A stretch of DNA of 64,000 nt from Rhodovibrionaceae bacterium (GTDB lineage: Bacteria > Pseudomonadota > Alphaproteobacteria > Kiloniellales > DSM-21159), in contig JANQMX010000058.1 in assembly GCA_028279885.1 (NCBI GenBank), positions 186,001 through 250,000 of the forward strand, given 5' to 3'. Positions 3,733-7,192 of the stretch are shown piece by piece. How positions within the stretch are numbered: the first letter of the stretch is position 1; every line of letters begins with the position of its first letter. Under the pieces are notes generated by a model. The model made no database searches, was not told the DNA's origin, and saw nothing but the letters and a program-made list of their open reading frames with translations. Both the position numbers and the translations under genes were made by a program.

Positions 3733-4209
3733 CTACAACGTTTCGACGAGCTGCATGCGGGCGCTGTAAAGCAGGGCCGGGAGAACCCGCACCTCCAACG
3801 ACAGAATTGCCGCTGCTTCGCTGTATGAGCGGCCGTCGATCACGACCAAGGCAAGCACGGCGCGCTCGGTCGTGGTCAACTCGGCTGTCTTGCGCCTGAT
3901 CCGTTCGATCGGCGTTCGATCTCCCTGGTGCGGCCCGTCGGAGCCGTTCTTCCGCATCGTTGGCGAGGGCTCCCATGCGGGGATGGGGTCGCCGCTCTGC
4001 CAGCGATAGGCCCACATCTCGTAAACGAGGCTGAACATGCGGCAATCGAGCTGAGCATCCGCGCTGTCGTGAACGGCTGCGCTGCCAGCTTCCTGGCAGG
4101 CAGCCTCGACCAGGCGTTCTGCGTCATGTCGGCTTCCGCCGAGAACAAAGGCAAAGCGTAGCAGTCTCGGAAGGAGCGCTGCCATTTCCGAACTATAGTC
4201 CTTGTGCAT
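3733..4209 (-). CDS. ECF-type RNA polymerase sigma factor-like protein
   Basis: A 158-residue protein with two parts. An N-terminal helix set (LLPRLLRFAFVLGGSRHDAE, about residues 12-31) resembles sigma region 2 of extracytoplasmic-function sigma factors. A C-terminal segment (about 100-158, with LTTTERAVLALVVIDGRSYSEAAAIL) fits the region 4.2 helix-turn-helix. Size suits the ECF class, which directs RNA polymerase to stress or envelope promoters. No anti-sigma gene is next to it. It is divergent from a sensor kinase/response regulator pair, and the shared 319-base intergenic region holds phased repeats. The region 2 core is weakly conserved, so it could be a divergent or regulatory-only family member. 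Confidence 0.7.
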   Translation of the reverse strand: MHKDYSSEMAALLPRLLRFAFVLGGSRHDAERLVEAACQEAGSAAVHDSADAQLDCRMFSLVYEMWAYRWQSGDPIPAWEPSPTMRKNGSDGPHQGDRTPIERIRRKTAELTTTERAVLALVVIDGRSYSEAAAILSLEVRVLPALLYSARMQLVETL

Positions 4210-4399
4210 GCTTGAATGGCGTCCAGATTCCTGATGATCCAGCTGGCAAGCGCACTCCCGCCTCTGTCTCGCCCTGGTGCTTAGGCGTTATGCCCAAGCC
4301 CTTGCGCCTTTATCGAGGACACCTCTTATTGTTTACCGTAGTGAGCTACAGGCAGAGCGACGACGAGAGAAGCGAAATAACCGAAAGCTAATGCGGCGC

Positions 4400-4443
4400 T
4401 CATCCTCTGCTCATTGTGGCGTCATCTGGCGTTCATGTAGCTC
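4400..4443 (+). promoter_or_regulatory. Four TCAT direct repeats with 11-bp period (PhoB/OmpR-type box)
   Basis: TCAT occurs at 4400, 4411, 4422 and 4433, exactly one helical turn apart, each preceded by a G/C-rich triplet (cgc, tgc, gcg, cgt). Tandem half-sites with 11-bp spacing are how PhoB/OmpR-family regulators bind head-to-tail. The regulator encoded at 6196 is of that family, so autoregulation of its operon, the divergent sigma gene, or both is likely. The binding assignment is inference. Confidence 0.5.
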
Positions 4444-4481
4444 GGACGGCAGCGACTAAGTCCCTGTCATCCGAGAGGTTT

Positions 4482-4510
4482 TTGGACAGTGATCTGGGCG
4501 CAATTAATCT
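4482..4510 (+). promoter_or_regulatory. Candidate promoter of the kinase/regulator operon
   Basis: TTGGAC (4482-4487) and TAATCT (4505-4510) are separated by 17 bases and lie just downstream of the TCAT repeats, a geometry that suits activation by a PhoB-like protein. If real, transcription would start only about 12 bases before the first ATG, which may mean that the later ATG at 4565 is used. Confidence 0.3.
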
Positions 4511-4528
4511 GCCGTTCATGTACGACAG

Positions 4529-6199
4529 ATGGTCAAGCAGAGCGCCGGCAATTACATTTCCCGGATGCAGGTTCGCACGACAATTTCGCTGTGCATTGGA
4601 CTGCTGGCGATTGTCATCGTGGCGGGTGCGGGACTGTCGCTCTGGAACACCAACCGCGTTCTCTACAATCACGACCGTACGCGTCTCGCCTACGAAGAGC
4701 TCGGCGGATATCTCCAGCTCTCGGGTGAGATATTCCGCACCTTCAAGCAAGCCCGCCGTGACCTGCTGACGGACAACGGCCAACTGACGTTCGATCTTGA
4801 GACGTCGAAGCAAAGCATCGAGCGGATCCTCGAAGAGATCATCTTGTTCGAAGAAGAGGAGAAGCGGATAGGTCTCAGGTCTCGCGAGTCGCCGAGCGAC
4901 GAAGTGCGCGTGGGAGCGCTGCGCGAAGAGCTTGCCCTGGCCTTCGGCGACATCCGAACGACGGAACGTCTAATAAGTCTGGGACGGAGAGAGGAGGCGG
5001 TGGCCTTTCTTGGCAAGAGCCTGGAGACCCGCATCGACGGTCGCGTCGACCGCCTGATCGAAGCCGGAATCGCCGATGAACAAGGCGAGTTGACCGATGC
5101 CCTGCGCGATATCGAGCTCTGGAACCGTACCGTCACCTGGCTATCGATCGCAGCGGTGGCCATAGCGCTCGGTGCGGCCGGGCTGGTCATTTTCTCTCTG
5201 GTGCTGCGTCTTCGGCGCAGCCTGGTGAAGCTCGAAGCCGGCGCTGCGTGCTTTGCCAGAGGCGAGCTCAATCATCAAATCCCCATTTCCGGCCAGGATG
5301 AGTTCGCGACGCTATCGCAACGCTTCAATCTGATGGCACAGCAGCTCCTGCAACAGCGCGAGGCGCTCGAAGGCGCCAGGGCGTCCTTGGAGTTGCGGGT
5401 GGCGGAGCGGACACGCGAGCTGTTTGCCGCCAATGCCGAATTGAAGCGTCGAGACGCGACGCGACGCGAGTTCTTCGCCGATATCGGCCATGAACTGCGC
5501 ACGCCGATCACGGCGTTGCGCGGCGAAGCGGAGGTGGCGCTCCGCGCTCGCTCGGACCGGGAAGCCGGCTATCGCTATGCTTTAGAGCGCATCGTCGAGA
5601 TCTCCGGGCAGTTAACGCGCTTCGTCAACGACATCTTTCTGATCGCGCGCGAGCAGGCCGGTGTGCTCGACCTACGGCTCCATGTCTTCGATCTCAGAGA
5701 CGCCGTGCGTGCCGGCTTCGATCACATGCACGCCACGTTGGACCTTAACGCGGTCGAAGCCGAAATCGAGCTTCCTACGGAAGCAGCCTTGATCGAGGGA
5801 GACGAGGAGAGGGTTGCGCAACTGGTGCGTATCCTGGTCTCCAATGCTATCGAGCATGCCTCTAACGGGCGGGCGGTGCGCGTTCTCGTGTCGCGCGTCG
5901 ATGACTGCTGGCAGCTCAGCGTCGAAGACAACGGGCCTGGCATCCCCGAGGACGAGCAACCATGGGTTTTCGAACGCTTCTACCGCGGCTCAGGGCTCTC
6001 GAAGGAGCAGCGGACAAGCGGCAGCGGCTTGGGCCTGCCGATCGCCAGATCTTTGGTTCAGGCGCACGGCGGCCGCATCTGGATCGACCAGGCCTACGGC
6101 GACGGACTGGCCATCCGCGCCGGCTTCCCGGCGCTGGATGTGGAGAGCGAGGCGGCGGACGATCGCGCGCAGCTTGCGGCGAGGCACGCGAGCCTATGA
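4529..6199 (+). CDS. Membrane sensor histidine kinase
   Basis: Order of parts: membrane segment 1 (about residues 14-36), an all-helical acidic periplasmic domain (about 37-200), membrane segment 2 (about 201-228), HAMP linker, dimerisation domain with the H-box FFADIGHELRTPITAL (phospho-acceptor His321), and a C-terminal ATPase domain with the N-box ILVSNAIEHA, G1 box VEDNGPGIPEDE and G2 box SGSGLGLPIARSL. It autophosphorylates and passes phosphate to the regulator whose ATG overlaps its stop by 4 bases. The signal is unknown. There is no good ribosome site for the first ATG; Met13 at 4565 is an alternative start. Confidence 0.93.
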   Translation: MVKQSAGNYISRMQVRTTISLCIGLLAIVIVAGAGLSLWNTNRVLYNHDRTRLAYEELGGYLQLSGEIFRTFKQARRDLLTDNGQLTFDLETSKQSIERILEEIILFEEEEKRIGLRSRESPSDEVRVGALREELALAFGDIRTTERLISLGRREEAVAFLGKSLETRIDGRVDRLIEAGIADEQGELTDALRDIELWNRTVTWLSIAAVAIALGAAGLVIFSLVLRLRRSLVKLEAGAACFARGELNHQIPISGQDEFATLSQRFNLMAQQLLQQREALEGARASLELRVAERTRELFAANAELKRRDATRREFFADIGHELRTPITALRGEAEVALRARSDREAGYRYALERIVEISGQLTRFVNDIFLIAREQAGVLDLRLHVFDLRDAVRAGFDHMHATLDLNAVEAEIELPTEAALIEGDEERVAQLVRILVSNAIEHASNGRAVRVLVSRVDDCWQLSVEDNGPGIPEDEQPWVFERFYRGSGLSKEQRTSGSGLGLPIARSLVQAHGGRIWIDQAYGDGLAIRAGFPALDVESEAADDRAQLAARHASL

Positions 6200-6879
6200 A
6201 TCTTCTTCTGATCGAGGATGACCCGCGGATCGTCGAGTTCCTCGATCGCGGTCTGCGTGCCGAAGGACACACGGTCGAGGTTGCCAGCAATGGCCAGCTT
6301 GGGCTGGAAAAGGCACGGGCGAAGGCCTGGGATGCCATTATTCTCGATCTGATGCTTCCCATGCTCGATGGGCGTGAGCTTTGCCGGACCCTGCGCATGG
6401 AGCGCAACACCACGCCGGTCATCATACTGACTGCACTCGACAGCACGGAGGACGTGGTCCGGGGCCTTCGTATGGGCGCGGACGACTATCTCACAAAGCC
6501 GTTCGCCTTCGACGAGCTCCTGGCGCGCTTGGAGACGCTGCCGCAACGTGCCCGCTGTGCTGCCGGTATGCCAAACGAGACAACCCTGGTCGCCGCCGAC
6601 TTGAGCTTCGATCGAGAGGCTCTGGTCGTGCGCCGTGCCGGCGTGGAGCTGGACCTAACCTCGCTTGAGTACGCGCTCTTGGAGTTTCTTATGCTTGAGC
6701 AAGGCAAGGTCTTAAGTCGTGCCCGCATCCTTCAGAACGTCTGGGGCGCTCATCAGGATCCGCTGACGAACGTGGTCGACGTCTACATTCGGCGATTGCG
6801 CGCCAAGATCGACGATCCTTTCGAGCGCAAGCTCATCACGACAATCCGCGGCCGCGGCTATCGCCTGGCTGCCTCTTAG
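6196..6879 (+). CDS. OmpR/PhoB-family response regulator
   Basis: A 227-residue two-domain protein. The receiver domain has the acid pair near residues 7-9 (IEDD), phospho-acceptor Asp51 in LDLMLPMLDG, Thr79 and Lys101 (DDYLTKPF). The C-terminal winged-helix domain has LTSLEYALLEFLM and the recognition-helix region TNVVDVYIRRLRAKID, ending in the family's IRGRGYRL. ATG overlaps the kinase stop (ATGA), so the pair is translationally coupled. An upstream in-frame extension was rejected because the receiver begins exactly at this Met. Its likely target is the phased TCAT array before the kinase gene. Confidence 0.95.
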   Translation: MNLLLIEDDPRIVEFLDRGLRAEGHTVEVASNGQLGLEKARAKAWDAIILDLMLPMLDGRELCRTLRMERNTTPVIILTALDSTEDVVRGLRMGADDYLTKPFAFDELLARLETLPQRARCAAGMPNETTLVAADLSFDREALVVRRAGVELDLTSLEYALLEFLMLEQGKVLSRARILQNVWGAHQDPLTNVVDVYIRRLRAKIDDPFERKLITTIRGRGYRLAAS

Positions 6880-7192
6880 CGGTCCGAATCCAAAGTTCAT
6901 CGCGGCAAGCCGCATGGACAGACAATAATCGACATAAATGTGAAGTGGCTCACTGAGCGGCGGTGTGAATGCGGTAGAGCTTTCATCACCGTGAACCGCG
7001 CATTGGGGGCTTCAAGATGATGCGCACGACGATGGCTATGGCCATGATTACCGTAGGGTTTCTCATCCACCTTCTCGCCACCACAGTCTGAATCGTAAGG
7101 CGAAGCCACTTTTGCCGCTGCCGGCGATTTCCCACGGCGCGGAAATGCCGTACTCTCGTCGTCCGGGACATCAGGCTGGCATGGAGGCGGCG
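6880..7192. other. Intergenic region with one candidate mini-gene
   Basis: 313 bases between the response regulator stop and the dioxygenase start. Apart from the 24-codon reading frame at 7017, I see a small perfect inverted repeat (GCGGC-AA-GCCGC, 6902-6913) just after the regulator gene, which could be part of a terminator, and no clear promoter. Confidence 0.4.
7017..7091 (+). CDS. Possible 24-residue hydrophobic small membrane protein
   Basis: ATG to TGA gives MMRTTMAMAMITVGFLIHLL plus four residues: a positively charged N-end followed by one membrane-length hydrophobic stretch. A purine-rich TTGGGGGC lies a few bases upstream. This resembles bacterial single-pass mini-proteins, but length alone makes chance occurrence quite possible. 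No family is recognised. Confidence 0.3.
   Translation: MMRTTMAMAMITVGFLIHLLATTV

Follow-up and report, generated by a model that had tools for sequence, protein, structure and literature searches.

A predicted six-unit OmpR/PhoB-family operator of 11-bp direct repeats between a sigma factor gene and a sensor kinase operon

The effector domains of the response regulators PhoB and PhoP bind direct repeats in tandem, one domain per 11-nt unit, and the core of the PhoB box is CTGTCAT (PMC4415409). At the pitH2 operator of Streptomyces, the four units of a core and two weaker units are filled in order of affinity, and 64 nt are protected (PMC7866108). The PHO boxes of Streptomyces PhoP, an OmpR/PhoB-family regulator, are 11-nt direct repeats of the form GTTCACCnnnn with the core GTTCAC (PMC7866108, PMC4415409). 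In E. coli, the pho box of PhoB consists likewise of head-to-tail 11-nt repeats containing TCAT, with several boxes at ugp.

We analysed a 64-kb stretch of a Rhodovibrionaceae genome (the window), in which an array of related design lies between divergent genes. As at pitH2, four good and two weak units occupy about 64-66 bp. The core, CGTTCAT, is similar to GTTCAC; Streptomyces PhoP belongs to another regulator clade and another phylum and responds to phosphate. The features of the locus are as follows:

3733-4209, minus strand: divergent ECF-like sigma factor gene, candidate second target (region 4 match below the Pfam cut-off).
4375-4440, plus strand: six-unit array of 11-bp direct repeats (periodicity, position weight matrix (PWM) and profile model), with the units AAATAACCGAA AGCTAATGCGG CGCTCATCCTC TGCTCATTGTG GCGTCATCTGG CGTTCATGTAG in this order, AAATAACCGAA being degenerate.
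4400-4436, plus strand: the four perfect TCAT half-sites of the initial annotation (pattern searches of window and genome).
4502-4523, plus strand: proximal two-unit site AATTAATCTGC CGTTCATGTAC, about 44-45 bp 5' of the likely kinase start (PWM).
4568-6199, plus strand: sensor histidine kinase gene (domain matches to HAMP, HisKA and HATPase_c; start conserved with genome G053).
6196-6879, plus strand: gene for an OmpR/PhoB-family response regulator (receiver and winged-helix effector), the presumed binder of the array.
7018-7092, plus strand: tiny ORF MMRTTMAMAMITVGFLIHLLATTV, conserved with the congener G001.

The initial annotation had placed TCAT at 4400, 4411, 4422 and 4433 of the plus strand with an exact 11-bp spacing, which we reproduced. 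Its count of four units, taken to suggest two dimers, was too low: two degenerate units (TAAC at 4378 and TAAT at 4389) stand in phase at the start of the array, which gives six units, or three dimers, and a separate two-unit site lies further downstream. The G/C triplet said to precede each TCAT is loose (CGC, TGC, GCG and CGT), and the conserved unit, refined from 83 units, is CGTTCATcTGG. The distance to the sigma gene, put at about 190 bases, is 165 bp from the array edge at 4375 to the sigma ATG at 4209.

The array stands out by several measures. The exact four-unit TCAT pattern occurs once in the window, and with up to three mismatches it gives 4 overlapping matches, all within the array (0.13 expected from shuffles); in the whole 5.6-Mb genome the array is the sole exact four-unit match, with 0 matches to a reversed-pattern control. 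A motif-free period test, run on the intergenic region of 319 bp with 1000 dinucleotide shuffles and comparing periods 8 to 15, returned p=0.001 for period 11 whether n was 3, 4 or 5 units; for n=4 and 5, period 11 alone reached p<0.01, and for n=3, periods 9 and 15 scored low as well. Scored with a PWM built from 29 units of other genomes, the window being excluded, the array ranks first in the window at 35.1 (five units), and the best unrelated place reaches 3.4. The locus carries a direct head-to-tail repeat at an 11-bp period, as in the tandem operators of OmpR/PhoB-family regulators. Between the array and the proximal site, an inverted repeat CTGTCATCC...TTGGACAG was noted at 4464-4489, with a lone half-site at 4464 that is out of phase with the array. 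A scan of 4200-4600 for a sigma-70-like consensus promoter and a terminator found none.

Given the tandem recognition of 11-nt units by regulators of this family and the pitH2-like anatomy, we take the array as the predicted operator of the cognate regulator encoded at 6196, a reading to which we assign a probability of roughly 0.8. This regulator has a receiver domain (PF00072, 4.9e-28) and a winged-helix effector domain (PF00486, Trans_reg_C, 2.2e-26). Its best NCBIfam match is the CopR/CusR/CzcR heavy-metal regulator family (TIGR01387), at 231.9 bits against a curated cut-off of 279.2, so that membership was rejected; no metal genes were found among the neighbours looked at. Just 3' of the regulator gene, the tiny ORF encodes a hydrophobic peptide of 24 amino acids, possibly a small membrane protein.

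The proximal site, absent from the initial annotation, is the top two-unit match in the whole window for a PWM trained without the window and without G053, the genome that holds the closest orthologues (regulator 74% identical, sensor part of the kinase 58%). The G053 counterpart is the top two-unit match in 7.5 kb and lies at a nearly equal distance from the kinase ATG: if the kinase begins at 4568, GTTCAT is 54 bp from the ATG in the window and 51 bp in G053. The start at 4568 (ATGCAGGTTCGCAC), common to G053, is the likely one on this comparison, and an upstream ATG at 4529 is less likely.

Homologous loci were gathered with two queries, the regulator and the sensor part of the kinase. In the motif-free test, period 11 was significant 5' of the kinase in G019, G026, G012 and the Acetobacteraceae contig L070 (p=0.001 to 0.002), with six, six, five and four units, respectively, those of L070 on the opposite strand; a second locus in G026 carries six units. 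G053 was considered as a counter-example, with two units before the kinase itself, and was set aside because a six-unit array sits 5' of the preceding gene, its units running TAA, TAA, TCA, TCA, TCA, TCA as in the window. The half-site varies within the clade, being GTTA/GTTAAT in G019 and G026 and TTCAT elsewhere. An 11-bp period is also that of the PmrA box (CTTAAT-N5-CTTAAT) and the CtrA site (TTAA-N7-TTAA), whose half-sites resemble those of G019 and G026, whereas most array members have TTCAT. Among more distant clade members, the array heads a cluster of genes for a MobB/CbiA-like P-loop protein, a CydC-like ABC exporter, the kinase and the regulator (L170-L177; L152 769-1842), and a second array often lies near an aspartyl/asparaginyl beta-hydroxylase gene. 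Standalone MobB-like P-loop genes in G012, G019 and G026 carry arrays too.

The arrays track one group of regulators. When 37 regulators were placed in a tree, the 16 associated with arrays all grouped in a single clade with support of 100/97 (bootstrap not fully settled). Upstream regions of other OmpR-type regulators reached p<=0.01 at period 11 in 3 of 99 cases, no more commonly than at periods 9, 12 and 15; these controls lie mostly outside the clade and come from loci that are regulator-first or of a different operon type, whereas the array clade is kinase-first. On this count the array as a generic feature of OmpR-type regulators was ruled out, for regulator-first loci only. The clade members examined carry arrays of the motif, and array-model matches are absent from genomes of the same family that have no clade regulator; the exceptions are the array of G001, which has no adjacent regulator, and a few weak model matches outside the clade.

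Regulon searches combined pattern searches with a sequence-only profile model built from eight arrays. In the own genome, the matches with E<0.2 are the window array itself (1.2e-10, a training row) and an independent one at C88:29144 (0.006), which heads a paralogous kinase-regulator cluster; the next two have E-values of 0.27 and 0.79. When the model was applied to 59 genomes of the order, training rows took the first seven places, and the independent matches below 0.02 comprise the syntenic site in G001, clade loci in G055, G012, G056 and the own contig C88, three single copies of MobB-like genes (G019:C232, G012:C3 and G026:C590) and four other places. Matches preceding DegP genes in G038 and G041 were left uncounted, being weak, and the G038 regulator lies outside the clade.

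The initial annotation had made conservation in orthologous intergenic regions the check on its reading, and the congener G001 keeps both the spacing and the core bases. At its syntenic locus (L187, G001:C120, 1-1272), the sigma gene (72% identical), the array, the tiny ORF and a TauD-like gene stand in the same order as in the window, and the segment corresponding to about 4439 to 6938, with the proximal site, the kinase and the regulator, is missing. The six units of the G001 array are without indels, and 22 of 24 core bases are identical as against 28 of 42 others (p=0.02). The best regulator in G001 is a paralog on C252, 48% identical to that of the window; since the assembly is 88% complete, a regulator copy elsewhere is possible. 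Either another regulator, such as the paralog, must bind the array in G001, or the array is a remnant there. A block at 4314-4335 (GAGGACACCTCTTATTGTTTA), between the array and the sigma gene, is almost identical in the congener and may be the sigma promoter region. The persistence of the array without an adjacent kinase-regulator operon indicates that it is more than an autoregulatory site, and its retention beside the sigma gene that it probably has a role on the sigma side as well.

One could go further and suppose that the six-unit array acts as operator for the sigma gene, possibly with other targets, and contributes little to autoregulation, which would pass through the proximal two-unit site alone. 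Besides the gene content of G001, this is consistent with G053, where the array stands 5' of a carbonic anhydrase gene and a separate two-unit site serves the kinase, and with G019, where the array is also found in reverse orientation some 150 bp from the start of a carbonic anhydrase gene, comparable to the reversed array 165 bp from the sigma gene. Against it, the arrays of G019 and G026 read toward the kinase and end about 32 bp before its start, and in the clusters of MobB-like, ABC and kinase genes the array stands at a short distance from the first gene and reads toward it. The picture as a whole is mixed: array orientation speaks for the kinase side in the window and in G019 and G026, G001 and G053 speak for the other gene, and the arrays of G053 and L070 do not point toward the kinase. 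We regard an exclusive role at the sigma gene as possible but unlikely. Dual control that includes the sigma gene is plausible, because the congener lacks the kinase-regulator operon and has retained both the array and the sigma gene.

Across the examined array loci, adjacency of the sigma gene to the array is confined to the window genome and its congener. Beside the G053 array lies a homologue of metal-independent carbonic anhydrases (NF047901, 3.2e-35, 121 bits against a curated cut-off of 350), and in G026 the adjacent gene is a divergent carbonic anhydrase of the alpha type (PF00194, 1.2e-42) with a close homologue in G019, where another carbonic anhydrase-like copy, at a distance of 8.6 kb, has a second array next to it (L168 1221-1763; L166 1486-2256; L165 near 10474 and about 1000-2100). 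The occurrence of two unrelated carbonic anhydrase types in the nearest relatives is a lead on function, and control of these genes would make a circuit responsive to CO2/bicarbonate or to pH possible. A fuller scenario is speculative and, in our view, rather doubtful: an undescribed clade with six-unit operators, of which the window's subclade would control carbonic anhydrases (alpha-type in G019 and G026, metal-independent in G053), maybe in a CO2/bicarbonate or pH circuit, the operator now driving a sigma factor in the window lineage and having outlived its regulator in the congener. In the literature searched, nothing relevant to the array motif or to a two-component system linked to carbonic anhydrase was found.

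It is very improbable that the array is a PhoB (phosphate) box. The TCAT half-site at 11-bp spacing does resemble CTGTCAT, and elsewhere in the own genome a site of three TCAT units precedes a pair of genes for a DeoR regulator and an ABC ATPase that resembles a glycerol-phosphate uptake operon. The own genome, however, has PhoB as a separate gene (G000:C62), and the array follows another regulator: PhoB scores above its family cut-off in 21 of 21 genomes, and array matches are absent from genomes of the same family without the clade regulator. The half-sites in G019 and G026 are GTTA/GTTAAT, not TGTCAT, and the three-unit site is outside the own-genome matches of the model up to E=10, although its units are PWM-positive. 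The array neither follows PhoB nor has the CTGTCAT core, and the PhoB reading was rejected on distribution and half-site. The three-unit site itself (L067 1500-1537; G000:C12:3671-3707) consists of perfect TCAT units at 11 bp and is PhoB box-like, with the DeoR-type regulator and ABC ATPase genes on one side and a small monooxygenase-like ORF on the other. A functionless repeat arising by chance or composition is barely conceivable, short as the four-base motif is and AT-richer than the genome as intergenic regions are, in view of the shuffle tests, the genome-wide uniqueness, the conservation in the congener, the related loci with the same motif and period, and the clade restriction.

Returning to the array as the operator of regulator 6196, the head-to-tail design proposed initially for this regulator gained support from the congener and from the clade, and its unit and dimer count did not hold. 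In the mechanism that we propose, the kinase encoded at 4568 would phosphorylate the regulator, which would then dimerise, and winged-helix domains would line up on the DNA head to tail, each on an 11-bp unit and hence all on one face of the helix. The four well-matched units at 4397-4440 would form a high-affinity core, the two weaker units at 4375-4396 would fill as occupancy rises, and the pair of units at 4502-4523 would be bound separately. The proximal site would most likely autoregulate the kinase-regulator operon, and the six-unit array would most likely act on the divergent sigma gene, on the operon or on both. The sequence comparisons establish the repeats, their conservation and their association with one regulator clade; the identity of the binder, the cooperative filling, the targeting of the sigma gene, and whether and in which direction regulation is positive or negative are inferred.

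The predicted operator adds a new case to a familiar class of bacterial switches and is ordinary in kind. An uncharacterised clade of kinases and regulators gains a defined predicted motif, which makes regulon prediction and footprinting straightforward. The recurrent carbonic anhydrase neighbours hint at a testable signal, and G001, which has lost the regulator and kept the operator and the sigma gene, offers a natural experiment on operator rewiring.
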